A stretch of DNA of 64,000 bases from Porphyromonas pasteri. GTDB lineage: Bacteria; Bacteroidota; Bacteroidia; Bacteroidales; Porphyromonadaceae. Every line of letters starts with the position of its first letter. Positions within the stretch are counted from its first letter, which is position 1. Below, one piece after another: positions 462 to 62,480 of the stretch. The notes beneath the pieces are model-generated. The model searched no databases and was not told the DNA's origin. It was given only the letters and a program-made list of their open reading frames with translations. The position numbers and the translations under genes were made by a program. The stretch covers positions 1 through 64,000 of the forward strand of contig NZ_BMPU01000002.1 in the NCBI RefSeq assembly GCF_014647755.1. Reading direction: 5' to 3'.

Positions 462-890
462 CAGCTCCCCGATATGCCACTCCGAAGAGACACACAAGCC
501 CTTCGCCTTATCGCGCGTATACCTCTTTTATCCAGCGGAGGGAAAAGCATCGTTCGCGTGAAGGGAAAAGCGCCTTTACGTAGTGCTTTTCCTCTGTCTA
601 TGTCCGTAGTCTTAAAGACCAGGCACGTAAATCCAAATATCCACGTACGTAGATATTAGAGCCACGTACGTAATCCAAACTTATTTGCCACTCGTCCGCA
701 ACTTTTATCCCTACGTGGAGCAACAACCTAATAGAGGTCACTTCTCAAAGCTATATAGGAATCCAAGCAAAGCTATATAGCTTTCTTCGCCATCCTATAT
801 AGGTCGTCATCGCGACCTATATAGCTTCGTCGTCGGACCAATATAGGTCAACCCGACGACCTATATAGGTTCACACCGCCCCCTCATAGC
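462..890 (+). repeat. Intergenic repeat element, copy E1 (phased palindromes)
   Basis: First of four full copies (others near 3832, 16583 and 62116). It begins AGCTCCCCGATAT and has a conserved body with CACGTA/TACGTA-core sites centred at about 605, 626, 648 and 669 (spacing 21, 22, 21). After 63 bases follow seven TATATA-type sites centred at about 732, 754, 776, 798, 820, 842 and 864. Sites from 798 onward have GACC or GGTC arms. The copy ends in CCCCCTCATAG. A 61-codon reading frame at 474-659 is broken or shifted in the other copies and is not called. No transposase or clear terminal inverted repeat was seen. Confidence 0.85.
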
Positions 891-1062
891 AGATGCACCC
901 ACCTTTCGGAGGTCTCCGCACACCCTCTTCTCCACGAAAAGTCCCCACAGAGAAGCAAATACCTATCGGTAGGTATTGCACTGTCAGCCAAAAAGTCGTA
1001 ACATTGCAGTACCATTTGACAACGCAAGTTGCCCGCTGTTCCTAACCGAAAAACAAAGAGTC

Positions 1063-2511
1063 ATGAGACAGAAGACCCAACCACAGCAGCTACACACGGA
1101 CTACCCATCCGAATGTACCACCATCATCGTCGGACGCCAGCACACCTCCGACGGCTCTATGATCGTCGCACGTAGCGAGGACTGGAACGCCGTCCTGGCG
1201 AAGAACCTTGAGATCTACGAAGACACCGACCATGGTCCCGAGCGCTTCGTTGCTCTCGACAGCCCCTTCCGCTGCGACCTCCCCAAGCGCGCCCTTGGCT
1301 ACTCCGCCCTTGCCCCCTACCACCTCCACGGTCACTGGGGAAGTGCTGGCTTCAACAGCGTCGGCGTCGGCATGAGTGCTACCGAAAGTATCTTCAGTAG
1401 CGACCGCGCCCTCGAAGCCGACCCCCTCGTACCCGACGGCGTCGCTGAGAACTCCGTCTTCAACATCGTCCTGCCCTACATCCACTCCGCTCGCGAAGGT
1501 GTCGAACGCCTCGGCTCGCTCATCGAGATGCACGGGGTGGCCGAAGGCTTCGGCGTCGGCTTCGTCGACAGCCACGAGATCTGGTACCTTGAGACCGCCT
1601 CGGGACACCGCTGGCTCGCCACCCGCATCCCCGAAGATCAGTACTTCGTCACGGGGAACCAGAGCCGCTTCCGAAAGTACGACCCCAAGGATCACGCGAA
1701 CTATCTGGCTTCGGACGACCTCATTGAGTTCGCCATCCAGCACGGCTTGTACGATCCCACACGTGGCGAATTTGACTTCCACGAGGCTTATATCCGTGAT
1801 GTCAAGCTCGACACGACCTACAACTATCCCCGCGTATGGGGCCTGCAGGCACAGCTGAGCCCATCGATCAAGAACGACGTGACGAAGAACACCTTCCCCG
1901 TCTTCGCCCAAGCTGCCGAGCCCATCTCCATCAGCCGCCTCAGACAGCTCTTCCGCTTCCACTACGACGGTACGGACCACGACCCCTACCTCCATCAGAA
2001 CCCCAAGGAGGTCTACCGCCCCGTCTCCATCTTCCGCACCACACAGACCCACCTCCTACAGGTACGCCCCGAGCTTCCTCAGGCTATCGGCTGCGTCAAC
2101 TATGTGGCGCTTGGGATGGCTGACCTCAGCGTCTTCCTCCCCCTCTACGAAGGCATCCGCTCCTACCCCAAGGCTTACACGAAGGGGACGAACGAGTCTT
2201 CACACGAGTCCGCCTACTGGAAGTTCCGCAAGGTCCAGGCGCTCGGTATGGTCGACTACAACCGCTATGCCCCCATCATCAAGAAGGTCTACGCCGACTT
2301 CGAAGCTGAGACCGACCAGCGTCAGCGCGAGATGGAAGAGCAGTATCTGGCTATCTACCAGACGCAGCCCTTGCACGCACGCGACCTCCTGCAAGCCTTC
2401 TCCGACCACGTCCTTCGCTCAGCCCTCGAGGTCACCGACCAGCTCATCGAGACGCTCTTCACGCACCTGACGATCGACATCCAGGCCGAATACGAGTTCC
2501 ACGGCGCTTAG
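1063..2511 (+). CDS. C69-family dipeptidase (PepD-like Ntn hydrolase)
   Basis: The 482-residue product looks like a peptidase family C69 dipeptidase, an Ntn hydrolase that cuts small peptides. Cys18 in SECTTI would become the N-terminal nucleophile after removal of a 17-residue propeptide, and ARSEDWN follows as in the family. The reading frame opens upstream at a TTG (976), but the ATG at 1063 gives the usual short propeptide and is preferred. No signal peptide is evident from this start, so location is uncertain. The gene stands alone, with repeat E1 upstream and a strong convergent terminator downstream. Substrate specificity cannot be read from sequence. Confidence 0.85.
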   Translation: MRQKTQPQQLHTDYPSECTTIIVGRQHTSDGSMIVARSEDWNAVLAKNLEIYEDTDHGPERFVALDSPFRCDLPKRALGYSALAPYHLHGHWGSAGFNSVGVGMSATESIFSSDRALEADPLVPDGVAENSVFNIVLPYIHSAREGVERLGSLIEMHGVAEGFGVGFVDSHEIWYLETASGHRWLATRIPEDQYFVTGNQSRFRKYDPKDHANYLASDDLIEFAIQHGLYDPTRGEFDFHEAYIRDVKLDTTYNYPRVWGLQAQLSPSIKNDVTKNTFPVFAQAAEPISISRLRQLFRFHYDGTDHDPYLHQNPKEVYRPVSIFRTTQTHLLQVRPELPQAIGCVNYVALGMADLSVFLPLYEGIRSYPKAYTKGTNESSHESAYWKFRKVQALGMVDYNRYAPIIKKVYADFEAETDQRQREMEEQYLAIYQTQPLHARDLLQAFSDHVLRSALEVTDQLIETLFTHLTIDIQAEYEFHGA

Positions 2512-2532
2512 TAGCTGAGGCACGATAAGCAA

Positions 2533-2571
2533 ATGAGCCGCCCTCTGCCAGCAGTGCAGAGGGCGGCTCAT
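2533..2571. terminator. Bidirectional terminator between dipeptidase and bioG-like gene
   Basis: A perfect 16-base stem (2533-2548 with 2556-2571) and 7-base loop lie between two converging genes, so it can serve both strands. Confidence 0.85.
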
Positions 2572-2597
2572 ACCGTTTGTGGGGTAAGGGAATTGGG

Positions 2598-3281
2598 CTA
2601 CCAGAGCTCCTCCCAGCGGCGGAAGTGGCCGAGGAGGTAGTGCGGCGTCTTGGGGAGGTGCGTGAAAGGCACGCCCTGGATGCGCCAGTAGTTCTCTTGG
2701 TTCGTCGGGGGGACGACGCGGTCATCTTCGCCGATGAAGGCTTTGCTCCACAGGCCGAAGGCTGCAGGCTTAGGCAGTGGGCGGGGCTGATCGCGATCGA
2801 CGGTGAAGGGGCGGATGAACTCATCATAGAGCGCCTCCGTAGAGCGCTGGCGCACCTCCTCATAGAGGTGGCGGTAGGTCTTACCACCGAGCATGTGTCG
2901 GTCGAAGCGCTCACGATTCTCCTCCGTCAGCCCCTCAAGGGTCTTGTGGAAGAAAGCTTCGGGGATACCCACGGCATCATCGACTTGGTAGCCCGTACCA
3001 GCAAGCGCCGTACCCGAGACGACACGACTGCGGAGCTCTTCGTGCTTAGCGAAGAAGCGATCGGCTGCCCAGATACCCATCGACCAAGCGACGAGGCGAA
3101 TCTCCCGATAGGGCGAGAAGTCGAAGTCAAGCGCATCGGTGCGGTAGTCCCAGAGAAGCAGGAGATCCTGCCCCTCGGGGAGGCCGAGGTGCTCTACGGC
3201 AATGGGGCTGAGTGCCCAGCCATTGAAGTAGAGGACAAGGCGATCGGTAGGCGCTGAGGCGGGGCGGAAGAGCTGCTCCAT
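2598..3281 (-). CDS. bioG: BioG-like (DUF452) pimeloyl-ACP methyl ester esterase
   Basis: The 227-residue alpha/beta hydrolase matches the DUF452/BioG family, which removes the methyl ester from pimeloyl-ACP to release the biotin precursor. The nucleophile elbow is AWSMGIW with Ser67. A late GEDDRVVPP segment and the C-terminal PHYLLGHF (His214) can supply the acid and base. It is cytoplasmic, with no signal peptide. It lies 3 bases after the stop of the DUF695 gene on the same strand and is probably cotranscribed. No other biotin genes are in the window, so the pathway assignment rests on the family alone. Confidence 0.75.
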   Translation of the reverse strand: MEQLFRPASAPTDRLVLYFNGWALSPIAVEHLGLPEGQDLLLLWDYRTDALDFDFSPYREIRLVAWSMGIWAADRFFAKHEELRSRVVSGTALAGTGYQVDDAVGIPEAFFHKTLEGLTEENRERFDRHMLGGKTYRHLYEEVRQRSTEALYDEFIRPFTVDRDQPRPLPKPAAFGLWSKAFIGEDDRVVPPTNQENYWRIQGVPFTHLPKTPHYLLGHFRRWEELW

Positions 3282-3284
3282 CGC

Positions 3285-3728
3285 TTAGTCTTCGTCTGAG
3301 TCGTCGGTCTCGAGCGCCAGCATCTCGTGGTAGTCGCTCCAGTCGGGGTCCTCTTCGCAGTGGATCTCAAGCGGAAGCGTAGGATAAGGCGCGAGGCATT
3401 CATTCAGACGCTCGCCGAAGGAAGGGAGGTGGCGTGTGTAGAAGGTCCAGTCCTTCTGCCCACCGCCGGTATAGTTCCCCGTAAGGATGGCGAGCTTATC
3501 CTTCTCCATGATGCGGCGGAGCTTGGGCTCGATATCCTCGATGAGGCGTGCGGTCTCTTCGTCGGGCATCCCGTCGGGCTCGGCGGTGTAAGGCCATGCG
3601 ATATCCACACGCACACGGAGCTTGCCGCTCTCGAAGAACTGAGTGAGGCCCTTGCGGACGGTCAGGAGGACTATCGCCCCACCCTCGGTATGGCTCACGC
3701 TGGTGAACCAGTCATCGGTAAGTATCAT
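3285..3728 (-). CDS. DUF695-family protein
   Basis: The 147-residue acidic protein begins MILTDDWFTSV and resembles DUF695, a family of unknown biochemical role. It has no signal peptide and ends in a run of acidic residues (DDSDED). The reading frame continues upstream to 3797, but a -7 box TACCTTTG at 3753-3760 falls inside that extension, so the ATG at 3728 is the likely start. It is the first gene of a two-gene unit with the BioG-like esterase, from which it is separated by 3 bases. Function is not known. Confidence 0.7.
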   Translation of the reverse strand: MILTDDWFTSVSHTEGGAIVLLTVRKGLTQFFESGKLRVRVDIAWPYTAEPDGMPDEETARLIEDIEPKLRRIMEKDKLAILTGNYTGGGQKDWTFYTRHLPSFGERLNECLAPYPTLPLEIHCEEDPDWSDYHEMLALETDDSDED

Positions 3729-3752
3729 ATATATGTAAGTCGTTTCTTCCCC

Positions 3753-3760
3753 CAAAGGTA
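3753..3760 (-). promoter_or_regulatory. Promoter -7 box for DUF695-bioG unit
   Basis: The minus strand reads TACCTTTG. The expected start is about 20 bases ahead of the ATG at 3728 and rules out the longer reading frame. Confidence 0.65.
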
Positions 3761-3831
3761 CGCAATCTCCGTCCCTTAGCCTCCCCAGCACCATCACTCC
3801 ACGACGCCCCCTCTCTTCACCACCTAAGCCC

Positions 3832-4215
3832 CTCCCCGATATGCCTCTCCGAAGTGATACGCAAGCCCTTCACCCTATCGCAAGTATTCCTCTTATCCAG
3901 CGAAGGAAAAAGCATCGTTCTCGTGAAGAAAAAGCACCTTCCCGTAGTGGTTTTCCCTTATCTATGTACGTAGTCTTAAAGACCAGGCACGCAAATCCAA
4001 ATATCCACGTACGGAGATTTATCGTCCACGCACGTAGTCCAAACTTATCTACCACTCGTCCGGAACTTTTATCCCTGCGCGGAGCAACAACCTCATATAG
4101 ATCACTTCACAAAAGCTATATAGGAATCAAGAGAAAGCTATATAGCTTCGCACCGAAAGCTATATAGGAATCAGGCCAAAGATATATAGCTTTCTTCGCC
4201 ATACTATATAGCTCT
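3832..4215 (+). repeat. Intergenic repeat element, copy E2 (phased palindromes)
   Basis: Second full copy, between divergent genes. CACGTA-type sites are centred at about 3969, 3990, 4012 and 4033 (21, 22, 21). A 63-base gap leads to six TATATA-core sites at about 4096, 4119, 4141, 4163, 4185 and 4207. It lacks the GACC/GGTC-armed sites seen at the end of E1. The rest of 3729-4391 holds nothing else I recognise beyond the promoter at 3753. Confidence 0.85.
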
Positions 4216-4391
4216 ACACGACGCAGCTATTCCACGCCCATTATTTTGTACATTCGTAGCGGAATACCACATCGGTATATGCTGCTGGGAGTGGTATAAT
4301 CTTCATCCAACGGGTTTGATACTATGGAGAGCGAGCACGAACTTCATCACCTTCTTAGATAGCCCAACTGACATTAAATTTTCTTCCTCTC

Positions 4392-4991
4392 ATGCATCGA
4401 ACAGTGAAGCGAATACTCTGTGGCATTGGGGTAGCACTTGCCATCCTCGTCATCGCAGCAGGCGGCCTCTATCTCACGGGGTACCTCCAAGTCTACGGGC
4501 TCACATCAGGCTACCAGTACTTAGACCGCGAAGAGCGGGCAAGGATCGTCTTCTCAAGGAATAAGCTTCGTAACCTCGACAGAACCCTCGATAGGGTACA
4601 TCGAGAGGGGAAGATCCTCTGCGTCAATGGCGCCGAACTCCGAGCTGCACTCGCCTCCAAGCCCAAGGCCTTGGTCTACATCTTTACCGACGGCTGCACC
4701 TCAAGCGCGTGTCTTCCCCTGAGTACCATAGGGGCGTATGCGCATAAGATCGGTGCAGAGCCCTACTATGTAGCTATTGACCTCACGCCTGGACTTCTGA
4801 AGCGCACCGAGCCTATCCTAAGTATCGACTACACGCACTACGGGACGAAGTGGCACGACAGCTTCTACGAAGCCTTCGTCAAGGATCTCACGGGGCGCTC
4901 AACCGACGAGGAGCACTTCAACTTAGTTCTCTTCGAGAAGGGGCGCATAGTGAGCATCTTCACTACGGAGAAGCTACTCCAGCAGCCATAG
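4392..4991 (+). CDS. Membrane-anchored protein of unknown function
   Basis: The 199-residue protein has a basic N-terminus and one hydrophobic segment at about residues 8-31, then a soluble part that probably faces the periplasm. The soluble part contains LVYIFTDGCTSSACLPLS, which resembles the beta-strand and active-site loop of a thioredoxin-like fold. The two cysteines are separated by SSA rather than the usual two residues, so redox activity is doubtful. I do not recognise a named family. It is a single gene with repeat E2 upstream and a 12-base-pair terminator stem downstream. Confidence 0.6.
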   Translation: MHRTVKRILCGIGVALAILVIAAGGLYLTGYLQVYGLTSGYQYLDREERARIVFSRNKLRNLDRTLDRVHREGKILCVNGAELRAALASKPKALVYIFTDGCTSSACLPLSTIGAYAHKIGAEPYYVAIDLTPGLLKRTEPILSIDYTHYGTKWHDSFYEAFVKDLTGRSTDEEHFNLVLFEKGRIVSIFTTEKLLQQP

Positions 4992-5039
4992 CTCACTGCC
5001 GCTATAAGGGCAGTAAGAGTAGCTTCAACAAAGGAGCTA

Positions 5040-5071
5040 TCGCGGGGTACCTCAATAGGGGTACCCCGCGA
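5040..5071 (+). terminator. Terminator after the anchored protein
   Basis: A 12-base stem (5040-5051 with 5060-5071) with an 8-base loop lies about 50 bases past the stop codon at 4991. Confidence 0.7.
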
Positions 5072-5217
5072 CGCTTCTATGGGGATGAGGGACGATCCTT
5101 ACCCCACATAGAGCGCCCTAATGGCGCTGGCAGAGGGAAGGCACCGCGAAGGACTTTTAGAAATACGGGGCTTTTTCGGGATAATATTTTAGGATGGGGC
5201 GTAGACTTATTAAGATA

Positions 5218-5240
5218 TTGGGGGAAAAGCTATATATTTG
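5218..5240 (+). promoter_or_regulatory. Promoter of the DEAD-box helicase gene
   Basis: The -7 box is TATATTTG (5233-5240). A TTG trinucleotide sits exactly 12 bases upstream (5218-5220), a spacing that recurs at four other promoters here. Confidence 0.65.
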
Positions 5241-5265
5241 CCTCTAACTCAACATAGCAGCATCA

Positions 5266-6648
5266 ATGTATTTCGACGAACTAGATCTTGAGGACGAAGT
5301 GCTGGATGGGCTCGAAGCGATGAACTTCTTCGAGACCACACCCGTACAAGAGGCCACCATCCCCCTTCTCCTCGAACGCCGCGACATGATCGCTTGTGCC
5401 CAGACAGGCACAGGTAAGACGGCGGCCTATCTCCTACCCATCATCAACCGACTGAGCCGTGGCGAGGGCGACCCTAAGAAGGTCAACGCCGTCATCATGG
5501 CTCCGACCCGTGAGCTCGCCATCCAGATCGAGCAGCAGGTCGAGGGCTTTGCCTACTTCCTCCCCGTCTCCTCAGTAGCTATCTACGGCGGTACGGACGG
5601 GATCGCCTGGGAGCAGCAGCGCCGTGGTATGGCTCTCGGGGCAGAGATCGTCATCGCCACGCCAGGGCGTCTCCTGGCCCTGATGAACCTCCAGCAGGCA
5701 GACCTCTCGGGAGTGACGTACTTCGTGCTCGACGAGGCTGACCGCATGCTCGATATGGGCTTCCAGGAGGACATCATGCAGATCAATAATGCGCTGCCGA
5801 AGGACTGCCAGCGCGTGATGTTCTCGGCGACGATGCCACCGAAGATCAAGAAGTTCGCCCGCACGATCCTGCACAATCCTGCCGAGGTCGAGCTGGCTAT
5901 CTCCCGCCCACCCGAGAGCATCGTGCAGTCCGCCTATGTCTGCTATGAGCGCCAGAAGCTGCCCATCCTGACGCAGCTCTTCCGCGAAACACCCCCTACA
6001 CGCACGATCATCTTCTCCAGCTCCAAGCTCAAGGTCAAGGAGCTCGCAGCCACGCTCTCCCGCCTGGACATCCGCGTCGAGCAGATGCACTCCGACCTGA
6101 CGCAGGAGAAGCGCGAAGAGGTCATGAAGAACTTTAAGTCGGGCAATATCGATCTGCTCGTCGCCACCGACGTCGTGGCGCGCGGTATCGATATCGATAA
6201 CATCCGCATGGTGATCAACTACGACATCCCCCACGACCCCGAGGACTATGTACACCGCATCGGTCGTACTGCCCGTGGTGGCAACGATGAGGGGCTGGCG
6301 ATCACCTTCGTCAGCGAGAAGGAACAGCCTGGCTTCGGACGCATTGAAGAGTTCCTCGAAAAGGAAATCTATAAGATCCCAGTAGATGAGGCCTTCGGCC
6401 CCACACCTGCCTACGACCCCAGCCGTCGCCCCGAGCGCGGTGGCCGCGGTGGCTCTTCTCCCCGTGGGGGGCAAGGCAACAAGGGCGGAGGTCGCGGACG
6501 TGGCCGCAGCTCCCAGCAGGGCCAGCGCCCCGAAGGTAAGACCGACACCCCCAAGGGCGAAGGCGCAGCTCAGGGTGCACACAAGAAGAAGCGCCCCAAC
6601 AACCGCCGCAAGTCTCAGGGATCTACGCCACCTAAAGGCGAAGCCTAA
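5266..6648 (+). CDS. DEAD-box ATP-dependent RNA helicase
   Basis: The 460-residue protein has the full set of DEAD-box motifs: AQTGTGKT (about 45-52), PTRELA, DEAD (about 156), SAT and HRIGRTARG (from about 330). It unwinds RNA duplexes using ATP, probably in ribosome assembly or RNA turnover in the cytoplasm. The last 80 residues are rich in Arg, Gly and Lys (RGG-type), typical of an RNA-binding tail in RhlE-like helicases. The ATG at 5266 lies 25 bases after a -7 box. The ROK regulator gene starts 27 bases after its stop and may be cotranscribed. Confidence 0.93.
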   Translation: MYFDELDLEDEVLDGLEAMNFFETTPVQEATIPLLLERRDMIACAQTGTGKTAAYLLPIINRLSRGEGDPKKVNAVIMAPTRELAIQIEQQVEGFAYFLPVSSVAIYGGTDGIAWEQQRRGMALGAEIVIATPGRLLALMNLQQADLSGVTYFVLDEADRMLDMGFQEDIMQINNALPKDCQRVMFSATMPPKIKKFARTILHNPAEVELAISRPPESIVQSAYVCYERQKLPILTQLFRETPPTRTIIFSSSKLKVKELAATLSRLDIRVEQMHSDLTQEKREEVMKNFKSGNIDLLVATDVVARGIDIDNIRMVINYDIPHDPEDYVHRIGRTARGGNDEGLAITFVSEKEQPGFGRIEEFLEKEIYKIPVDEAFGPTPAYDPSRRPERGGRGGSSPRGGQGNKGGGRGRGRSSQQGQRPEGKTDTPKGEGAAQGAHKKKRPNNRRKSQGSTPPKGEA

Positions 6649-6675
6649 ATAGCTCACCTCAGTACCAGACTCCAC

Positions 6676-7899
6676 ATGACACCCAAACTACTTGACGACC
6701 TCAGCCAGGAGACAAAGAAGGGGCTGCACAAGCTCCGTGTGATCAATTACCTGCTGCGCAACAAGACGGCCACGATGACGGACATAGCCAAGGAGCTATA
6801 CGTCAGCGTCCCCACAGCTTCTAAGATCCTCCAAGACCTCCAAGACGGAGGCTGCATCCAGAGCCAAGGTAAGCTGGAGATCGGCGTCGGGCGCTTCCCC
6901 CTACTCTTCGGGCTCAACCCCGACGGGGGCTACTTCATCGGCGTAGACATCAAGCGCTCAGGTATGCACATCGGCCTGATCAACCTGCAGAGCGAGCTGA
7001 TATGCGCTGACTATGACCTGCCCTACACGCTCGAGAACACCCCCGAGGCCCTCGAGACGATCTGCCGTGAGATCCGTGGCTTCATCACACGCCACGGCAT
7101 CCAGCCCAAGGAGATCCTGAACATCAACGTCAACCTCCCTGGGCGCATCAACCCCGTCACGGGGCACAGCTATAGCCTCTTCAACTTCTTCGGCGACCGT
7201 CCGCTCTCCGAGATCCTCAGTAGCAAGCTCGCCCTGCGCGTCTCGATCGACAACGACACGCGCGGTATGGCCTTCGGGGAATTCACTGCGGGCTGCACCA
7301 AGGATATGGAGGTCAACTCCGTCCTCTACGTGAATATCAGCTGGGGTCTCGGTCTCGGTATCATCCAGGACAAGCAGATCTACTTCGGTAAGTCGGGCTT
7401 CTCTGGAGAATTCGGCCATATCTCCGTCTTCGACAACCAGATCCTCTGCCACTGCGGTAAGAAGGGTTGTCTCGAGACCGAGGTCAGCGGTCAGGCTATG
7501 TGCCGTAAGATCCAGGAGCGCATCCGCGCTGGTGAGAGCTCCGTCCTCTCGTCCATCGTCCACTCGGGCCGTGAGCTTCGCATGTCTGACCTCATCAGCG
7601 CCTGCGCTCAGGAGGATATGCTCTGCCTGCAGGTCCTCAGCGAGCTGGGCCGTGAGCTCGGTAAGCAGGTAGCGAACCTCATCAACGTCTTCAACCCCGA
7701 GCTCGTCATCATCGGAGGTAGCCTTGCTGATGCCTCCGGCTACCTCACCCAGCAGGTCGAGGCCTCGGTACGTATCTATTCGATGAGCGTCGTGACGCGC
7801 GATACGCAGATCCGCACGGCTACGCTCGGCGACCGCGCAGGGCTCATCGGTGCCTGTATGCTCGCTCGCTCACGCCGCTTCGCAGAGCCCTCGAAGTAA
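6676..7899 (+). CDS. ROK-family transcriptional regulator
   Basis: The 407-residue protein combines an N-terminal winged-helix region (about residues 15-75, MTDIAKELYVSVPTASKIL) with a ROK sugar-kinase-like domain. The ROK zinc-binding motif CHCGKKGC is at about residues 258-265. Such proteins (NagC, XylR type) repress sugar genes and respond to a sugar or sugar phosphate. The target is not shown: its neighbour is an RNA helicase, and nagB lies 18 kb away. A 23-base-pair terminator follows. It could also phosphorylate a sugar, but the DNA-binding domain favours a regulator. Confidence 0.88.
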   Translation: MTPKLLDDLSQETKKGLHKLRVINYLLRNKTATMTDIAKELYVSVPTASKILQDLQDGGCIQSQGKLEIGVGRFPLLFGLNPDGGYFIGVDIKRSGMHIGLINLQSELICADYDLPYTLENTPEALETICREIRGFITRHGIQPKEILNINVNLPGRINPVTGHSYSLFNFFGDRPLSEILSSKLALRVSIDNDTRGMAFGEFTAGCTKDMEVNSVLYVNISWGLGLGIIQDKQIYFGKSGFSGEFGHISVFDNQILCHCGKKGCLETEVSGQAMCRKIQERIRAGESSVLSSIVHSGRELRMSDLISACAQEDMLCLQVLSELGRELGKQVANLINVFNPELVIIGGSLADASGYLTQQVEASVRIYSMSVVTRDTQIRTATLGDRAGLIGACMLARSRRFAEPSK

Positions 7900-7926
7900 A
7901 AGCCGCTCGCACACATACACTACTAC

Positions 7927-7977
7927 AAAAGCGCTCGCCCCAGCGATCCATACGGGATCGCTGGGGCGAGCGCTTTT
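7927..7977. terminator. Bidirectional terminator between ROK gene and folE
   Basis: A perfect 23-base stem (7927-7949 with 7955-7977) has a 5-base loop and is flanked by A and T runs that are part of the stem. It separates converging genes. Confidence 0.92.
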
Positions 7978-8020
7978 AGCGTACCTATATTATATAGGAG
8001 ATGCTACAGGGGGCTATACC

Positions 8021-9167: not shown

Positions 9168-9209
9168 AGGAGTTTCGCTGAGGGGTTGGGGAGCGTGTGA
9201 GGAAAGGAG

Positions 9210-55299: not shown

Positions 55300-55354
55300 A
55301 TATGTGGGGCACTTTGTGGGGCAACGGATTAGTAAGAAGTGAGTGTACCTCTGA

Positions 55355-55362
55355 CAAAGGTA
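55355..55362 (-). promoter_or_regulatory. Promoter -7 box of beta-mannosidase
   Basis: The minus strand reads TACCTTTG, about 55 bases before the ATG at 55299. Confidence 0.65.
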
Positions 55363-55376
55363 GTCTATACAAAGAA

Positions 55377-55417
55377 ATCAGGCGACAACGGGGCGGTTGC
55401 CACCATTGTCGCCTGAT
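55377..55417 (-). terminator. Terminator of ssrA
   Basis: A 12-base stem (55377-55388 with 55406-55417) lies 16 bases past the tmRNA 3' end. Confidence 0.8.
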
Positions 55418-55432
55418 CGGATCCTTAATGAG

Positions 55433-55839
55433 TGGAGATGCGGGGGTTCGAACCCCGGTCCAAACATGGAACTAATCTGCTTTCTACATGTTTATCCTCA
55501 CTTTAGGTTTTCGTGCACCGCCCGCGACTGAGGCTACCATAGGCAGTGCCTTATCCCTCTAAATACACTCCCAAGCCAAGGGCAAGCATTGGGCCAGTCT
55601 CCGATTTTCCGGCACCACTATGATCAAGTCGCCTCGGTGAGAACGGCTACCTGAGTGATGTCTCGTCACAACAGTCTGTCGTCGTGATGAAGCGTCGAAC
55701 CTACTCTATTCGGTTACGCAGCGAGAGCGTAGTTATTTTCGCCAGTTGAATTTTTGCTCTGTGAGATTAGAGTGCTCACAAGCCTTGCACTACATGCTTA
55801 CAAACCACTTCTTCATGCTGTCAAAGCCAGGTCATCCCC
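55433..55839 (-). ncRNA. ssrA: tmRNA, tag peptide (A)GENNYALAA
   Basis: On the minus strand the RNA begins GGGGATGACCTGGCTTTGAC and ends GTTCGAACCCCCGCATCTCCA, so GGGGATG pairs with CATCTCC and forms a tRNA-like acceptor and T arm. The tag reading frame (55714-55743) encodes GENNYALAA and a stop, after the alanine carried by tmRNA itself. This matches the tag known in Porphyromonas. The RNA rescues stalled ribosomes and marks products for proteolysis, with Lon a possible protease. CCA is not encoded. A -7 box lies at 55855-55862. Confidence 0.96.
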
Positions 55840-55854
55840 GTAAGGTCTGTACTG

Positions 55855-55862
55855 CAAAGATA
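55855..55862 (-). promoter_or_regulatory. Promoter -7 box of ssrA
   Basis: The minus strand reads TATCTTTG, 16 bases from the tmRNA 5' end. Confidence 0.72.
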
Positions 55863-55920
55863 GTGAAAAGGTACTGCATCACGATATCGGGGGTGCGCAC
55901 CCGTAGTGGAGGGTGGTAGA

Positions 55921-56023
55921 AACCAGTAGTGGTCCGCAAGCAAACCAGTACTGGTCACGAAGCGAAGCAGTACTGGTCACTATATGCAACCACTACTGGT
56001 CGGAGCACGAACCACTACTGGTC
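55921..56023. repeat. Array 3: five ACCAGTACTGGT-type palindromes at 22-bp pitch
   Basis: Units are centred at about 55927, 55949, 55971, 55994 and 56016 (22, 22, 23, 22). The core varies (AGTAGT, AGTACT, AGTACT, ACTACT, ACTACT) while ACC and GGT arms are kept, except for one changed base in unit 3. The tail CTCCCCCCTTCGTAG resembles the tails of array 2 and E1. It lies between the ssrA promoter and the terminator of the large macroglobulin gene. Confidence 0.88.
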
Positions 56024-56052
56024 GCTCTCCCCCCTTCGTAGAGCATAAAGAA

Positions 56053-56092
56053 AGCCCCCCACAAGCTCGCATAAGTGAGCTTGTGGGGGGCT
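56053..56092 (-). terminator. Terminator of alpha-2-macroglobulin gene
   Basis: A perfect 16-base stem (56053-56068 with 56077-56092) with an 8-base loop is followed on the minus strand by TTTCTTTATG. Confidence 0.9.
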
Positions 56093-56112
56093 TAGCGATT
56101 CGGCGGGGGAAA

Positions 56113-59100
56113 TTACTTCTTGAGAGGTAGGACGCTCGTCACGATACCGGCTGCCGTGTGCGCACTGTAGTCTGGTGCATAGCACGAGACGATGCGGGCG
56201 ACGGTGCCAGCGAAGCGGCCAGCACGTGCCACATACTGGTCGTAGCTGAGGAGGTACGTACCGCGGTTGAGGTGGTCGATGTAGAAGTTCGTCTCCGTGT
56301 CCTTCGGCTCGACGTAGTAGCCCGTGCCTTCGCCCCACTCATAGCCGGGCTTCTGGATGATGGGCTCCGTGAAGCCAGGGCGGGGGTCGATGACTTGGAC
56401 GAAGTCGAGGGACTGCTCGAGGCGGATCGTGAGACGCGTACGGAGGCGGTCACCGACACGCAGCTCCTGCCCTTCGGCGAGCGGTAGGAGTTCGTCGCCC
56501 TTGCTCCCTCGACGCAGGAGGAAGGTCTCACGCGTGATCTGGATTTGCTTGCCACGTGCCTCTACCTCTGCCGTGGGCAGGGTGTAGGTCGCCGTAGCAC
56601 TCCCCCAGAGGACGGCAGGCTGCGACTGCGAGAGCGTCAGGACGGTGTCGGGGTGGACGGTACTCGTGAAGGGCATCTTCACCTGCAGGCGGTCACCCTC
56701 GAGGCGGATGGCTTCACCCCCTACGACGGGCAGATCGATGCGTGCCTGTGCGTCCTTATCCAGCTCATGAGCGATAGGATCGCCGAGCGTGAGGCCGTAG
56801 ACGGCTTCGGCCGTCGGGAGGTCACGCCCCCATGAGTTGGTGCGCTTCTGAGCGACGATCCAGCGCTTGATACCGCTGATACGCTCGATATCCATGATGG
56901 AGGGGTCGGAGAAGAGCTCCAGCGTCTCGACGGCAGCGGGCAGTGCACGGCTGATCCACGAATAGCTCCCTGACTGCAGGCGGGCGAAGAAGAGGCCCGT
57001 CTCATCCTCGACGAGGTAGTCACGGATGCTCTCGACGAGCTCCATGGCGAGCTTCTTCTCCCCTGCACGGAGGAAGATAAGCGCTGCACGAGGCTTGTCG
57101 TCCAGCGGCATATCACGGAGATTGGTGCGTAGCTCGCGGAGGAAGTAGCTCTCTGCCTTCTTGGCTTCTTCGGAGGCATCACGCAGGCCGCGCGTCTTCG
57201 CCAGCGCCGCGAGGTAGAGGTAGTCGACGTCGGTGTAGACGTAGGCGCTCTTCCCCGCACGCTTAGCCTTGACGAGCTCAGCGTGATCGCGTACGGCCTG
57301 CTTGTCCAGTGCCTTCATCCCTCGGCGGATCATCTCCTCGAGGCGCAGACGCAGGGCGGACTCCAGATCGGAGTAGGCGGCCATGCGCAGCAGCGTACGC
57401 AGGACGTACTCGGTGGTATAGAGGCTACCCTCCATACCTGGGTACCACGCCCACAGGCCGTCGGAGGTCTGTAGGTCGCCGAGACGCTTGAGGAGCTGAT
57501 CGCTCGTGGTCGTATGATCAGGGCTGAGGAGGAAGCGAGCCAGCTCACGCTCTTGCTCAGCTTCCTGCTTCAGGCGACGCGCCCAAGGGCTCTTTGAGAG
57601 CAGGCTGTCACGCCCGACGAGAGCGCCATAGCTGGTACCCTTCTGCGTGGACTCGGGAGCATTCAGCACGCCCTCTGCCCACTTATGCAGGGGCTCATAG
57701 CCGACGAGGAGGCGGGCTACCGACTGCCCGAAGAGGGCCGTAGCAGCAGCGAAGGCGGAGACCTCCTTGTTGTAGGTCATCACGGGGAGTGCCGTGAGTG
57801 CCAGACGCGAAGCGTTGGGCTGCAGGGTGACGGTGAAGAGACCCGACTCAGGCATCTTCCCTGTCGAGGGGAAGAGCGGAGCGAGCGAGATGCGCTGCGT
57901 CCCCTCGGAGTGGGAGGAGAAGGCGATCGTCTCGGTGATGGTCTCACGGTCGGAGAGGACAGGCAGGATGTGCTGCTCGCCGTCGGAGGAATGGCTACCA
58001 CGAGCGATGACACGCACGCCGACGGAGTCCAGACCACGATAGCCCTCCAGCGGGAGGCTGAGGGTCGTAGCTGACGAAGCGGCGATGTCGAAGGTCTGTT
58101 GCTGGGTCGAGCGTACTACACCACTTGCGGGATCGAAAAGCTCGAGGGTCAGCGTACCATACTGTGCCTCGGGGCTCTCATTGCGCACCTCGGTGACGAG
58201 GGTCGCGGCATCGCCCTCACGGACGAAGCGAGGGAGTGTGGGGCGGATACTGAATTCGCGAGATGTCTCTACCGTGCGGCGCTCGATATGATGATCCAGC
58301 GTACGGCTGTGGGCGTTGAGGACGAGGCGCCAGCGAGAGAGTTGCTCGGGAGCGTTGAAGCTCCAGCTAACCTGCCCCTTGCTATCGGTCTTTAGCTCGG
58401 GGAGGAAGAACGTCGTCTCGGAGAAGTCCTTGCGAAGCTTCACGGCGGGGGCGCTCTCCTCTGCCTTTTTTGCACGAGTACGAGAAGAACCCATATCGGA
58501 GGGAGCAGAGACGATCTTATATTCTGCAGAGAGCTGCATCGTGGATCTTGCACCATATAGCATAGGGCTTCCGATCTCGAGCATCGGCTCTACAGTGTCC
58601 TCTTCCTCATCATCATCTTCTTCGGTAGTAGCCGACTTCTTGATGAAGGGTGAGCGGAATGCTCCACGAGGCTTATCACCCAGCCAAGCAGTCCACCACG
58701 CTCCATCAGGATAGCGCCCTCCACTCTGCTTATCGACAGAGATGAAGTAGCTACCGAGGAGGTGCGAAAGTGCAGTCTCCTTCAGGCGCAGCGTAGGGCT
58801 CCAGGGCTCCAGTGTCCCGAAGGCTTCGAGGGCGGCATCGTACATCCAGACGGCCACCGCCACACCTTCAGCAGGGCGCCCCTTATCGTCACGGAGCGTG
58901 AAGCTCCACGTCTCCTTATCGCCCGCCTTCAGTCGGTCACGGAAGCTATCCCACGTGATCTGAAGCTCCTTCTCGGGTTGTGTGCGCTGAAGCTTCACCT
59001 CTTCGCGGAGGAAGCGGCCGTCACGCACGGTGTAGAGCTTTACATCGATCTCTTCAGGCTCGGTGGGCTCCTTGGAGATATCTATCGGGAGCGTACACAG

Positions 59101-61914
59101 CGCACCAGCCTTCGGACGAAGGACGCCCGAGGCAATAGGGCCACGCTGACTATATACACTATAGTAGATATAGGCATCGGGGAGGCTCGTCGCATAGTAG
59201 ACGACGGGCTTCTTCCCTGCGCCATACTTCCCGTCGCCTGCGGAGAGGAGCAGGGGCGCACGCAGGTCGCTGACCTTGCTGTCACGCGTATCGAAGAGGT
59301 AAAGAGCCATCTGCCCAACATAGGAGAGCGAGTCGCGGTACTTAACGCTATAATCCAACTCATAGCGTCCCGAGGGAAGGGAAGCTAAGCGAGGAGCCAG
59401 CTCGATGATGCTATCAGTAGGCGTCGTCCCCTCCAGATGTACCTTCCCACCACTCGTGAAGCGGTAATGAACGGTCGGAAGCTCGGAGCGAAGCGTATGG
59501 AGCTCGTTCGTGAAGCGAAGCGTCGTGCTCGCACTCTTACGGTCAATAAGCTGGGGCAGATCCACACTCACCGCACCCACAGGCTGACCGATGGGTATAT
59601 TCAGGATCTCCTGATGGCTCTCACCAGCGCCGTCCGTCGAGGTGACAATCAGCGTATAGCTATACCACGGAGCGAAGTAATCCCCCTTACGCTGCGTGAG
59701 CTTCTGGGGATCCTCGGGAAGAGGCACCGTGAAGGAATAGCGCCCCGAGGCATCTGTGACGACCTCCGACGTGATATCCTCGATCTCGCTGCGGTCGCTA
59801 TAGTCGACACTCAGCTCTCTGAAGCTCCAGAGAGAGACGGAGCGGCGGAGCGTATAGCTCACACGGGCATCCGCTACGGGGCTACCACTGAGCGTACGCA
59901 CCGAGCCCGTGATGGGGAGCGTGCCACCATACTGATAGGGAGGCTGGGGCATATCGACGGTGAGCTCTGTACCCTCGCGCTTATACTCGAAGACAGCGAA
60001 CTCACAGCTGAACTCAGGCGAGAGCTCTTGATCGCGCTCCGATGCCGTACGAGCGCGGATACGATAGTCACCCGTGAGACCATCCTTCGGCAGAGTGATG
60101 CTGGTCGAGAAGCGCCCGAAGGCATCCGTCTGGACCTTGAGCTCCTGCACCTTCTCATACGACGCATTGATGACCTCGAGCGTGAGGGCCTTCGACGCTG
60201 CTACACGAGCATCCTCGGCGTGCATACGCACCTCGGAGTACACCCCATAGATATGAGCCGTCTGCCCAGGGCGGTAGGCGGGACGGTCGGTGGTCACATA
60301 GCCTTGGTAGGCATAGAGACGTAAGGGGTCAGCAGGGCCATCAGACCTACTACGATTTCGAGAGTGGTAGGAGTAAGCGATGAGCGGATCCTTCCCCGAC
60401 GCCATGAAGTAGCGCCACTCCCCATCCTTGAGACGGTAGTAGCCGAGGGCATCAGTCTTCACATCCCCCTTATGCTCGAAGTCTCCCCTGAAAGAGATCT
60501 GGTGATAGGTGTGGAAGGACTGATCCGCTACGGGCGCACCGGTGCGAGCATTCACCCACTGATGAGATCCGACATCCCCCGCTTCATGAGCGAGATAGAC
60601 GTACTCCGTACGCATCAGACTATTCTCTGCATCCAAGTCCTTGGATGAAGCCTCCGGAGAGTAGCCGAACTTGGTCAAGAGGATATAGTTCCCAGCCGTA
60701 GGGAGATCCAGGCTAAAGGGCTTAGCTCCCTTGCCTTCGCCCAAGTCATCGAGCTGGAAGGTCACCTCCTTCGTCGCTATGGGCTTGTCTTGGCTACCAG
60801 GCTTCCAGTCCTCACGCGTATCGGGGCGGATAATCGTAGGGACCTTATAGAGCTGCACCGTGGCCTTCGTCACGAGATAGGGTGCCTCCAGATGGACGCC
60901 TACTCTATCGAGGTAGCTATGGTCAGCCCTCTGTAGGAGCTCAGGGCGACGGCATCGCTTAGCCTCTTCCCCAAGCTGCTTGCGCATCTCTGGAGTAAGC
61001 CCCGTCACACGCTGGATGACCGACTCAAGGAAGCGAGCACGTCGCAGACGCTGGTAGGGATAGATCCCGAGGAGCGAGCTGAGCCCCGTACTGACCTCCT
61101 GATGGGTCGCATACTTCTTGAGATAATCCTCAAGTGCCTCGATGCGCTGGGTCTCTGTCATCTTATCCTTGTCGAGGTGGATCTGATGTCTGTCAATGAG
61201 TGCACGATAGTAGACGCTCTTGCTCGCCTCGGCGGCAGGGCGGAGCGTCTTCAGCACCTCACGATGCAGGGCTTCAAGGGCACCATCTCCGGGGAAGTTG
61301 TTGAGTAGCTCCGTGCCGAACGTAGGCTCTCCGATCGTCCCTTCATCAATAGAGAAGGCGGCGGAGTAAGGCTTCAGCGAAGCCGACAGCGCTGCGGGAT
61401 CGCTGATGAGTTCACGGATACGAGTCGTGTAAAAGGTATTGTAGTCCTGCTGGCTCCAGCTCTCGGGATTCACAGGATCGACATGCTTCGCCACGATCTC
61501 CTCGGAGCGGTAGCGGTATCGATCTTGGCGCTTGAAGTAATAGCGCAGGGTGAAGAGCTTGAGGGCCAGGCGGTCCGTCGCCGTCAGCCAAGGCAGGCTC
61601 TTCAGCTCATGAAGGGTCTGGTAAGCATTGATCTGCGCCTCGGGATCTCGATCTACCGTGCGTAGCCAGAGCTCCGAGTAGCCCTGGAGGAGGATATTGA
61701 GGTCGTGCTTCTTCATGCCGTAGTCGATGAGTTCGCGGGTGAGCGGGACATTAATACGATTACGATCACTCTGCCGGCTCGTATTGGGCTTGAGGATGCG
61801 CTGAATCTGCTGCACCCGTTGGATCTGGGGGGTAGCCTTAGTGCTCTGCTTCTTCTGCCCATAGCTGGGTAACGAGAGCGAGAGAGCCACAAGGAGGGCG
61901 TATCTGATCTTCAT
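56113..61914 (-). CDS. Giant alpha-2-macroglobulin-family protein, thioester motif not found
   Basis: The 1933-residue exported protein has a signal peptide (MKIRYALLVALSLSLPSYGQ). It contains macroglobulin beta domains, an MG2-like region (YQGYVTTDRPAYRPGQTAHIYG, about 535-555), a bait-like variable stretch (near 1120-1190) and the A2M region (FFLPELKTDSKGQVSWSF), then a helical toroid domain. At the position of the thioester CxEQ (about residues 1378-1398) I read YNKEVSAFAAAT, with no Cys-Glu-Gln. It should therefore trap proteases without covalent attachment. It is monocistronic, with a -7 box at 61961. Confidence 0.85.
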   Translation of the reverse strand: MKIRYALLVALSLSLPSYGQKKQSTKATPQIQRVQQIQRILKPNTSRQSDRNRINVPLTRELIDYGMKKHDLNILLQGYSELWLRTVDRDPEAQINAYQTLHELKSLPWLTATDRLALKLFTLRYYFKRQDRYRYRSEEIVAKHVDPVNPESWSQQDYNTFYTTRIRELISDPAALSASLKPYSAAFSIDEGTIGEPTFGTELLNNFPGDGALEALHREVLKTLRPAAEASKSVYYRALIDRHQIHLDKDKMTETQRIEALEDYLKKYATHQEVSTGLSSLLGIYPYQRLRRARFLESVIQRVTGLTPEMRKQLGEEAKRCRRPELLQRADHSYLDRVGVHLEAPYLVTKATVQLYKVPTIIRPDTREDWKPGSQDKPIATKEVTFQLDDLGEGKGAKPFSLDLPTAGNYILLTKFGYSPEASSKDLDAENSLMRTEYVYLAHEAGDVGSHQWVNARTGAPVADQSFHTYHQISFRGDFEHKGDVKTDALGYYRLKDGEWRYFMASGKDPLIAYSYHSRNRSRSDGPADPLRLYAYQGYVTTDRPAYRPGQTAHIYGVYSEVRMHAEDARVAASKALTLEVINASYEKVQELKVQTDAFGRFSTSITLPKDGLTGDYRIRARTASERDQELSPEFSCEFAVFEYKREGTELTVDMPQPPYQYGGTLPITGSVRTLSGSPVADARVSYTLRRSVSLWSFRELSVDYSDRSEIEDITSEVVTDASGRYSFTVPLPEDPQKLTQRKGDYFAPWYSYTLIVTSTDGAGESHQEILNIPIGQPVGAVSVDLPQLIDRKSASTTLRFTNELHTLRSELPTVHYRFTSGGKVHLEGTTPTDSIIELAPRLASLPSGRYELDYSVKYRDSLSYVGQMALYLFDTRDSKVSDLRAPLLLSAGDGKYGAGKKPVVYYATSLPDAYIYYSVYSQRGPIASGVLRPKAGALCTLPIDISKEPTEPEEIDVKLYTVRDGRFLREEVKLQRTQPEKELQITWDSFRDRLKAGDKETWSFTLRDDKGRPAEGVAVAVWMYDAALEAFGTLEPWSPTLRLKETALSHLLGSYFISVDKQSGGRYPDGAWWTAWLGDKPRGAFRSPFIKKSATTEEDDDEEEDTVEPMLEIGSPMLYGARSTMQLSAEYKIVSAPSDMGSSRTRAKKAEESAPAVKLRKDFSETTFFLPELKTDSKGQVSWSFNAPEQLSRWRLVLNAHSRTLDHHIERRTVETSREFSIRPTLPRFVREGDAATLVTEVRNESPEAQYGTLTLELFDPASGVVRSTQQQTFDIAASSATTLSLPLEGYRGLDSVGVRVIARGSHSSDGEQHILPVLSDRETITETIAFSSHSEGTQRISLAPLFPSTGKMPESGLFTVTLQPNASRLALTALPVMTYNKEVSAFAAATALFGQSVARLLVGYEPLHKWAEGVLNAPESTQKGTSYGALVGRDSLLSKSPWARRLKQEAEQERELARFLLSPDHTTTSDQLLKRLGDLQTSDGLWAWYPGMEGSLYTTEYVLRTLLRMAAYSDLESALRLRLEEMIRRGMKALDKQAVRDHAELVKAKRAGKSAYVYTDVDYLYLAALAKTRGLRDASEEAKKAESYFLRELRTNLRDMPLDDKPRAALIFLRAGEKKLAMELVESIRDYLVEDETGLFFARLQSGSYSWISRALPAAVETLELFSDPSIMDIERISGIKRWIVAQKRTNSWGRDLPTAEAVYGLTLGDPIAHELDKDAQARIDLPVVGGEAIRLEGDRLQVKMPFTSTVHPDTVLTLSQSQPAVLWGSATATYTLPTAEVEARGKQIQITRETFLLRRGSKGDELLPLAEGQELRVGDRLRTRLTIRLEQSLDFVQVIDPRPGFTEPIIQKPGYEWGEGTGYYVEPKDTETNFYIDHLNRGTYLLSYDQYVARAGRFAGTVARIVSCYAPDYSAHTAAGIVTSVLPLKK

Positions 61915-61960
61915 AAGATGGAGGTGTATGTGGTAGGGATCAGGTGATTGAGTTATATAG

Positions 61961-61983
61961 CAAAGATAGTAAGCTCTTCACAA
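61961..61983 (-). promoter_or_regulatory. Promoter of the alpha-2-macroglobulin gene
   Basis: The minus strand reads TTG, 12 bases, then TATCTTTG (-7 box at 61961-61968), about 47 bases before the ATG. Confidence 0.65.
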
Positions 61984-62115
61984 TACTGTATCTCTCGGGA
62001 GAAAGCTTATTGATTTCCCCATGCGAAGCCGTGCTTTTCTGGTGACCGTGCGGGTGAAGAAGGTGCGCTCCCGCAGGCCGTAGCGAGCGCCTCTCGGGGA
62101 GGGGCGAGTGACGCC

Positions 62116-62480
62116 CAGCTCCCCGATATACCTCTCCGAAGTGATACGCAAGCCCTTCGCCTTATTGCGAGTATTCTTCTTATTCAGCGGAAGGAAAAGT
62201 GTCCTTCTCGTGAAGAAAAAAGCGCCTTCCCATAGTGGTTTCCCCTATCTATGTACGTAGTCTTAAAGACCAGGCACGTAAATCCAAATATCCACGTACG
62301 TAGATTTATCGTCCACGCACGTAGCCCAAACTTATCTGCCACTCGTCCACAACTTTTATCCCTACGCGGAGCAACAACCTAATATAGGTCCCCACACAAA
62401 GCTATATAGGAATCAGTCCAAAGCTATATAGCTTTCTTCGCCATCCTATATAGGTCAGCCCAGCGACCAATATAGGTCCG
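62116..62480 (+). repeat. Intergenic repeat element, copy E4 (phased palindromes)
   Basis: Fourth full copy, between clpB and the macroglobulin gene. CACGTA-type sites are centred at about 62256, 62277, 62299 and 62320 (21, 22, 21). A 63-base gap leads to TATATA-type sites at about 62383, 62405, 62427, 62449 and 62471; the last has GACC and GGTC arms. A further GCTATATAA near 62499 lies 28 bases away. The rest of 61915-62600 holds only the macroglobulin promoter and the clpB terminator. Confidence 0.85.

Follow-up and report, generated by a model that had tools for sequence, protein, structure and literature searches.

Phased Rows of Short Palindromes Adjoin an IS5-Type MITE in Porphyromonas pasteri

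Introduction

BrickBuilt, a MITE reported in Porphyromonas gingivalis with homologues in Porphyromonas gulae, is composed of a leader, a series of 23-nt tandem repeats and a tail (PMC4596501). A second P. gingivalis element, MITE464/PgRS, has internal repeats of 41 nt, and its left TIR, GAGACTGTTGCA, is also that of ISPg4 (PMC4596501, Table 2). Repeats of 22 and 23 nt have been noted in P. gingivalis W83, although the passage citing them gives no locations (as cited in PMC4596501). In the example genome of a 2025 survey, REP sequences are reported, in the part drawn on here, to be neither clearly clustered nor periodic (PMC12306157).

Herein we analyze a 64,000-nucleotide stretch of the P. pasteri genome, called the window. 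An initial annotation described in it a single four-copy intergenic element (E1–E4) whose conserved phase was taken to suggest a DNA-binding protein reading one face of the helix. The element is real and its non-coding character is supported, but the description merges two things: an IS5-type MITE, which we call MITE A, and rows of short palindromes.

Results

E1–E4 Are MITE Copies Joined to Palindrome Rows

E1–E4 represent four of about 100 genome copies of MITE A, rather than the four originally counted. The element is about 322 bp long and has the ends GAGACTGTTGC...GCAACAGTCTC, which match TIRs of a known IS family (Table 2 of PMC4596501) and are located at −200 and +122 relative to its core. 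Because it is so short, MITE A carries no transposase gene. The core pattern yields 63 + 39 matches in the genome at ≤3 mismatches and none with a reversed control. The copy alignment started from 109 core matches at ≤4 mismatches; dropping nine that were on the opposite strand or were not MITEs left 100 rows.

All four MITE A copies in the window are on the + strand, and each is followed by an unstranded palindrome row. The E1 copy (407–730) begins with left TIR GAGACTGTTGC at 407–417, upstream of the start at 462 that had been assigned to it, and finishes with the degenerate right end GCAACAACCTA at 720–730. Its TATATA array (728–870; seven cores, all six steps 22) sits to the right of this GCAACA... 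end, whereas the annotation had included it in the element. E2 (3832–4094; right end GCAACAACCTC at 4084–4094) adjoins a row of six cores at 4090–4212 with steps of 23, 22, 22, 22 and 22. E3 (16583–16847; right end GCAACAACCGA at 16837–16847) and E4 (62116–62381; right end GCAACAACCTA at 62371–62381) adjoin rows of five cores with four steps of 22, at 16845–16942 and 62378–62476, respectively. An extra core-like match 28 bases beyond the E4 row was left out of this count. In E2, E3 and E4, the position where a left TIR would be expected showed none. These measurements agree with the annotated TATATA steps, including the single 23 in E2. The four ACGTA-type sites spaced at 21, 22 and 21 bases were likewise measured in all of E1–E4, with a mismatch in 4 of the 16 (TCCGTA in E1, CACGCA and TACGGA in E2, and CACGTC in E3). 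The gap that follows is constant in all four elements as claimed, but it is 62 rather than 63 bases from the fourth site to the first array core.

Palindrome rows also occur in the window free of any MITE. Five CCAGTACTGG-type units, which define what we call class 1 rows, are present at 16998–17096 (+; steps 22, 23, 22, 22) and again at 45759–45857 (+; same steps), the latter 3′ of a terminator-like hairpin at 45646–45690. A third class 1 row of five units (55923–56021, −) occupies the gap that separates the tmRNA from the gene at 56113–61914, where there is a terminator-like hairpin at 56052–56093. At 30008–30026 (+), the MITE A core is matched in degenerate form, either as an old relict or by chance. 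An Rfam search at gathering cut-offs returned the tmRNA and tRNAs and nothing else.

Descent Mostly Accounts for the Phase Within MITE A

The other 39 long MITE A matches that were scored are 81–91% identical to E1, and thus conserved phase among E1–E4 is what descent would produce. We conclude that the fixed phase inside the elements is owed mostly to recent descent, which suffices without protein binding. In seven old MITE A copies, identity to the consensus is 0.895 for the ACGTA sites and 0.799 for the spacers, and in 91 young copies (two of the 100 were dropped) the values are 0.955 and 0.951. This contrast is too weak to claim selection on these sites.

MITE A has often inserted inside pre-existing palindromic units. 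Its left flanks end in such a unit in 26 of 59 cases, compared with 5,485 of 122,838 background intergenic positions (4.5%). Exact 5-bp duplications, candidates for target site duplications (ATATT at L091, CAGTA at L056 and CTACG at L075) are present in 3 of the 11 copies having both TIRs at ≤2 mismatches. The genome has three PF01609 loci. Two of these are bounded on either side by GAGACCATTGC, the type of MITE B, and at none of the three were the GAGACTGTTGC ends expected of an autonomous parent found.

Palindromic Units Recur at 22 or 23 bp Beyond E1–E4

Intergenic rows, of which the TATATA sites form one kind, consist of at least three, and often five, short palindromes that follow each other at 22 or 23 bp. 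Over 441 kb of sequence, 145 of the 146 unit-to-unit distances of ≤120 can be composed from steps of 22 and 23. On contig C1, every one of the 51 intervals of ≤120 between the CCASTASTGG units among the matches listed equals 22, 23, 44, 45, 67 or 89. A free-period scan from 14 to 45 bp placed 41 of 42 rows of this genome at gap 0 and period 22, while shuffles gave 0–1 per set. In class 3 rows, TA-centred cores often step by 23. The random spacing that would speak against the initial annotation was sought in the rows examined and not found. Loci L009–L103 and L196–L235 of this genome were picked because they hold MITE or row units, whereas the window was not. The class 1 set comprises 29 rows at ≤5 mismatches, obtained by merging 82 raw matches that overlapped. 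Its alignment uses fixed offsets, and our claims on spacing rest instead on the distance counts and the free-period scan. The rows do not qualify as CRISPR arrays, whose repeats are near-identical and whose spacers are 20 nt or longer, given that the units vary and the linkers are about 8–13 nt.

The motif CCAGTACTGG has 188 matches in this genome against one for its control, and 0–6 in 37 other genomes of the family. Similarly, CCWATATWGG has 249 matches against five for its control, compared with 3–21 in 25 genomes of the genus, whose controls give 1–26.

Related Genomes Carry Rows of Other Palindromes

Rows of the same spacing are present in six related Porphyromonas genomes (G002, G006, G008, G009, G012 and G016), whose palindromes mostly differ from those of P. 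pasteri (for example ACCTACNGTAGGT, GAGTTACCATAACTC and GAGGGATATCCCTC). Most unit motifs are confined to one genome each. However, units are not strictly private, since ACGTATACGT is common to G012 and G016, and GATTTATATATAAATC to G006 and G008. In addition, ACCTATATAGGT has two matches each in G012 and G002, and the units of P. pasteri and G012 are alike in starting with ACC and ending with GGT.

In the free-period scan, relatives' rows of even-centred palindromes have period 22 in 11 of 12 cases and rows of odd-centred palindromes have period 23 in 15 of 16, 11 of those 15 being one G002 family. This parity rule does not hold for rows outside the genus. An earlier row scan, whose shuffles gave 0–4 raw matches per set, had missed the G002 rows, which have an odd, non-palindromic centre. 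The relatives' stretches were picked partly around a PSP1-type gene where rows had already been noticed; no rows were found in 40–64 kb of G013, G011 and G025, nor in a pool of 25 short loci.

A hand count in one collinear block with six long gaps gave rows in five gaps for G012 and in three for P. pasteri, so this agreement in position is not significant and conservation of row positions between species was set aside. Two G012 rows have flanks that are alike by eye and resemble copies of a larger repeat.

Units Are Conserved and Linkers Diverge

Across the compared families, units are 0.87–0.89 identical and linkers 0.39–0.48. Within class 1, pairwise identity is 0.889 for units and 0.393 for linkers, against a composition expectation of 0.251, and G002 linkers are 0.483 identical (10 of 11 rows used). 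This residual likeness of the linkers indicates that copying belongs to the history of the rows. Better evidence for binding than the phase of E1–E4 comes from linkers that have diverged while unit spacing was kept, and from relatives in which different palindromes are spaced alike.

Compensation within units is absent at variable positions of several families. Pairs observed versus expected number 24 versus 30.7 at G002 position 3, 7 versus 14.2 at G016 position 3, and 105 versus 110.6 at class 1 position 2. Positive pairing was found at class 1 position 5 (z 2.3), G009 position 4 (z 2.5, in 13 units) and the central pair of G016 (z 5.6); sets as small as this G009 one, or the 15 units of G006/G008, show little. 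The TATATA-motif set of P. pasteri (402 units, mixed families) also shows positive pairing at three positions (z 6.3, 6.2 and 12.5), which we ascribe, as a conjecture, to the mixing of families. Class 1 linkers show no row-by-row covariation, although the consensus sequences of linkers 1 and 4 have a complementarity of 0.55. By eye, some TATATA rows resemble whole-row inverted repeats, with flanks AGGGTGGTGTGAA/TTCACACCACCCT and with first and last linkers that are reverse complements.

Terminator-Like Hairpins Neighbor Some Rows

Segments between a stop codon and a row include an intrinsic-terminator-like hairpin in 10 of 28 cases, compared with 0.35 in shuffles, and show no terminator in the other 18. 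Between 44000 and 57000 of the window, a terminator scan gave eight matches against 6.4 in shuffles, and flagged hairpins beside two rows rather than the rows themselves. T-runs flank many rows, and a common arrangement is an A-run at the left outer flank with a T-run at the right one. The context of class 1 rows does not differ clearly from that of background gaps, which, together with the hairpins adjoining rather than forming the rows in the scanned stretch, weakens a reading of the rows as terminators.

Discussion

We favor protein-binding sites in duplex DNA over hairpins or REP elements as an explanation for the rows. Each row would be a set, often of five, of operator-like sites, wherein a unit consists of two inverted half-sites. 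Neighboring units would lie 22 bp apart if the half-sites abut and 23 bp apart if there is an odd centre, such that the distance across the linker is held constant. A putative dimeric, sequence-specific protein might occupy each unit and contact its neighbors, perhaps building up a small, regular nucleoprotein assembly that separates transcription units and has a boundary or nucleoid-anchoring role. The terminator-like hairpins in 10 of 28 stop-to-row segments speak for a boundary role, and the 18 segments without one, like the unremarkable context of class 1 rows, speak against it. MITE A would insert preferentially at the centre of existing units, and in many copies a TATATA row adjoining the decayed right end seems to have spread with the MITE. 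We give this two-layer explanation, taken as a whole, about an even chance of being correct. No protein binding the rows was identified. The DNA-binding protein proposed initially gains from several tests in which the units act like protein sites and loses the argument from phase. We doubt that it reads a single helical face. DNA turns once every 10.5 bp, and both 22 and 23 differ from 21, so that four 22-bp steps drift by about 0.4 turn.

The rows might instead be a selfish minisatellite without host function, spread and homogenized by transposition, slippage and gene conversion, whose palindromes persist as target or end-recognition sites of an IS5-type transposase. The 23-nt minisatellite of BrickBuilt expands and contracts between strains (PMC4596501), MITE A does insert into units, class 1 linkers are alike beyond composition, and the two G012 rows with common flanks look like copies of a larger repeat. 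However, neutral decay predicts equal loss in units and linkers, contrary to the identities observed, and slippage does not predict one spacing rule over differing unit sequences. Even if the rows are selfish, which we regard as rather unlikely, something must still hold the spacing at 22 or 23 bp over different sequences. We consider it improbable that the palindrome or the whole row folds, either in transcripts as a terminator or stabilizer or in supercoiled DNA as a cruciform. The A-run and T-run flanks resemble those of bidirectional terminators, certain TATATA rows look like inverted repeats, the mixed TATATA set pairs positively, and long stem loops are among the predictions made for BrickBuilt (PMC4596501). 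Hairpins within units are weakened by the uncompensated half-site variation, the mixed set pointing the other way, and one long hairpin per class 1 row is weakened by the lack of row-wise covariation, leaving the consensus complementarity of linkers 1 and 4. Moreover, the terminator scan of 44000–57000 flags hairpins beside two rows and not the rows, and folding would leave linker length free.

In favor of an origin as REP/BIME elements mobilized by a RAYT tyrosine transposase, the units are short intergenic palindromes that number hundreds per genome, are lineage-specific and serve as mobile-element targets, for which there is a precedent (PMC1525189). The row-bearing G016 has one PF01797 (Y1_Tnp) gene. 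However, PF01797 matches occur in only 3 of 26 genomes (G001, G016 and G023) and are lacking in six of the seven with rows (P. pasteri, G012, G002, G006, G008 and G009), which makes such an origin very improbable.

If the rows are indeed protein sites, then each species would carry many operator-like patches unlike in sequence to those of its neighbors. The protein must then have changed its specificity with the sites following, and since the majority of units occur in a single genome each, this switch would have involved a large number of sites in step with the protein. A simple pull-down, run in several species in parallel, should be able to reveal such a protein, and its sites could explain the 22- and 23-nt repeats of P. 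gingivalis W83. We tentatively extend this reading to phased rows widespread in Porphyromonas and bound by a rapidly re-specifying protein, which is possible but falls short of probable. What would be held is the layout (commonly four or five units, spaced at 22 bp with 1 bp added for an odd centre, between A-run and T-run flanks), while most unit sequences are replaced between species at many loci. This would constitute concerted co-evolution of a bacterial chromosomal protein and its sites, with BrickBuilt-like minisatellites as visible fragments.

Comparison with Known Systems

Among the matches listed in a search of the open-access literature, no paper describes phased 22/23-bp palindrome rows in Porphyromonas. 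Like REP/BIME elements as presented in the parts of PMC3733652 and PMC1525189 drawn on here, the rows are intergenic palindromes, often grouped, present in high copy and used as insertion targets. They differ in their strict 22/23 spacing and in the PF01797 match missing from six of the seven genomes that carry them. The insertion sequences that target REPs (PMC1525189, in the same part) likewise place a transposon into repeated palindromes, whereas here the palindromes are others and the insert, with its IS5-type ends, is a MITE and not a complete insertion sequence.

Compared at its TIRs with described MITEs, MITE A shares GAGACTGTTGC with the left TIR of MITE464/PgRS over 11 bases, an identity that concerns the ends. 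Among described elements, the closest relative is BrickBuilt of P. gingivalis. As the initial annotation suggested, the elements are BrickBuilt-like in having IS5-type ends and an internal array, a likeness judged by layout and TIR type. Both are intergenic and non-coding, and the tandem array of about 23 nt in BrickBuilt (PMC4596501) corresponds to a period here that is mostly 22. A 23-bp row of odd palindromes in G006 (L274, near 7644) may be BrickBuilt. The main text on BrickBuilt has no match to "palindrom", although it mentions dyad symmetry (PMC4596501). By description, what sets the present rows apart from BrickBuilt is that they consist of separate palindromes with diverged linkers, occur also free of any MITE, and use other palindromes in other genomes.

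A Repeated MITE Inserts into Palindromic Units

The phasing reported by the initial annotation for E1 to E4, the four window elements that each join a copy of the ~322-bp MITE A to a row of short palindromic units, was measured in all four and agrees with that description, given some corrections. The proposal that the element has four copies must be abandoned, because a search of the genome (2.17 Mb, nine contigs; the window is C2:1-64000) instead gave 102 matches to the MITE A core pattern at three or fewer mismatches, versus 0 in the control. Alignment of 100 copies, including 95 stretches outside the window and taken around the matches listed, reveals a conserved span bounded by GAGACTGTTGC, 200 bases to the left of the core, and by a GCAACA-type sequence 122 bases to its right. 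The left terminal inverted repeat (TIR) is retained at two or fewer mismatches in 59 of these 100 copies, and 11 of the 59 retain the right TIR as well.

MITE A inserts into palindromic units. The left flank ends within a unit in 26 of 59 copies, compared with 4.5% of background intergenic positions (5485/122838). Exact 5-bp duplications are present at copies L091, L056, and L075, the first two within units, and are absent from the other 8 of the 11 copies with both TIRs. Among 26 genomes of the genus searched, MITE A is present in one, that of P. pasteri, where no transposase parent with GAGACTGTTGC ends was found.

In some MITE A copies the array is followed by another small element, MITE B (GAGACCATTGC...GCAATGGTCTC). 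Two PF01609 transposase loci of the same genome (L240, about 827-2149; L241, about 1314-2638) carry GAGACCATTGC at both ends and could plausibly have given rise to MITE B; a third transposase frame, in L242, contains two stops. MITE A copies also lie on either side of the L241 locus (L037 and L038; G000:C3:246438 and 248853), and the L037 copy breaks off in AT-rich DNA beyond its fourth site.

Units Recur at 22 or 23 bp

A CC-W-N-TA-N-W-GG search of 441 kb recovered 168 units, and 145 of 146 distances of at most 120 between them can be composed of 22s and 23s. Across the genome, CCWATATWGG occurs 249 times, versus 5 in the control, and CCASTASTGG 253 times, versus 23. For the latter motif, the 51 intervals of at most 120 on contig C1, among the matches listed, are 22 (19), 44 (10), 45 (8), 67 (7), 23 (6), and 89 (1). 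Rows of such units (class 1) usually hold five, with steps of 22,23,22,22 or the mirror image, and often have A-runs on their left and T-runs on their right. Several rows with TATATA-core units have outward-facing end units and resemble an inverted repeat as a whole. Further classes comprise GCTATATAGC rows adjoining MITE A and rows of CGAATAGTCG-like units spaced 22-23. Among the units from the 441 kb, the core AATATT is nearly missing (1) compared with AATATA (30) and TATATT (25), so the halves are not freely combined. By eye, the linkers of a 12-unit row at 22 bp (L226, about 1925) alternate with a 44-bp period.

Rows in Relatives and Possibly Beyond the Genus

An ab initio scan that left the period of equally spaced palindromes free recovered rows at 22 or 23 from P. 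pasteri and from the relatives G012, G016, G006, G008, and G009. With a stricter scan, P. pasteri gave 42 rows (41 at gap 0/period 22, one at 44) and its relatives 28: gap 3/period 23 in 11 (all G002), 0/22 in 9, 1/23 in 4, and 1/42, 2/33, 2/22, and 4/22 once each. Shuffled sequence gave 0 or 1 row per set. One row came from G001, and none from the scanned stretches of G013, G011, and G025 or from 25 pooled short loci. Period 22 occurs in 11 of 12 even-centred rows of relatives and 23 in 15 of 16 odd-centred ones, rows within one genome being related. This parity rule is not obeyed by the 8 rows found in 799 kb from other Bacteroidales genera (periods 20-23 in 7, 37 in 1). Rows at 22 or 23 bp in Prevotella-type and Paraprevotella loci (L128 8698, L143 8981, L178 2420, L142 9389) suggest that the rows extend past the genus.

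Unit motifs are mostly confined to one genome. There are 18 GAGTTACCATAACTC in G002 and 0 across six other sets, and 36 ACCTACNGTAGGT in G012 with 1 in G002. Shared motifs are ACGTATACGT (G012, 3; G016, 4), GATTTATATATAAATC (G006, 7; G008, 3), and ACCTATATAGGT (P. pasteri, 6; G012, 2; G002, 2). At two or fewer mismatches, 460 kb of G012 contig C36 contains 23 ACCTACNGTAGGT rows of at least three units (three units in 10, four in 12, five in 1), with steps of 23 (53), 22 (5), 24 (1), and 45 (1). Some rows in stretches of this contig (L243-L249, L320-L335) contain 100-base N gaps, which are probably assembly breaks due to repeats. Of 10 G002 rows, 7 have an end unit whose centre faces the opposite way from those of the remaining four units.

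Genomic Setting

No called gene falls within any of the 29 class 1 rows. Their settings (tandem 15, divergent 10, convergent 2, at edge 2) exhibit no clear orientation bias relative to background gaps of at least 130 bp, the rows' own gaps included (113, 55, and 9). All nine TATATA rows scored away from an edge, a small sample, lie between tandem genes. A terminator-like hairpin occurs in 10 of 28 stop-to-row segments, versus 0.35 in shuffles. Rfam places three tRNAs at 21302-21693 (+) and a tmRNA at 55430-55839 (-) in the window.

The PSP1-domain gene (14937-16169) encodes a protein closest to those of G012 (85%) and G002 (81%), and rows of other palindromes lie beside the orthologue in both. 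In the block collinear between window 1063-16250 and G012 C36 70.4-86.3 kb, three gaps of P. pasteri hold rows (E1, E2, and E3 with its class 1 row). In G012 five gaps do, these three among them; two of the G012 rows contain 100-base N gaps and escaped the caller, being recognised by eye. On a hand count of six long gaps, the block does not support positional selection.

Duplex Sites, Minisatellites, or REP Elements

Between class 1 rows, unit identity is 0.889 and linker identity 0.393, against a composition expectation of 0.251; for G002 the values are 0.866 and 0.483. Variable unit positions lack compensation at G002 position 3, G012 position 4, G016 position 3, and class 1 position 2, and class 1 linkers reveal no row-by-row covariation. 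Units in the non-compensating families look like half-site pairs read in duplex DNA. Positive within-unit pairing was observed for a mixed P. pasteri TATATA set (three positions), class 1 position 5, G009 position 4, and the G016 centre pair, and TATATA rows may fold back. The class 1 motif set used for positions 2 and 5 also takes in variants of other classes from this genome.

We favour the reading, to which we give about an even chance, that the rows are duplex sites for a putative binding protein at transcription-unit boundaries. The main rival, that they are a purely selfish minisatellite, seems to us rather unlikely. Descent from REP elements, whose transposase type is RAYT (PF01797), is disfavoured because PF01797 has no match in P. 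pasteri, G012, G002, G006, G008, or G009.

Relation to Known Elements

PMC4596501 lists GAGACTGTTGCA as the TIR of ISPg4 and MITE464/PgRS and GAGACCATTGCA as that of ISPg1 and ISPg9, and assigns these insertion sequences to the IS5 family. MITE A adds a new member to a known type of element. BrickBuilt is the P. gingivalis MITE with an internal tandem array of about 23 nt. The rows take this picture beyond a single minisatellite of P. gingivalis, to an architecture found in seven genomes of the genus (P. pasteri, G012, G002, G016, G006, G008, and G009), with unit sequences that are mostly private to each.
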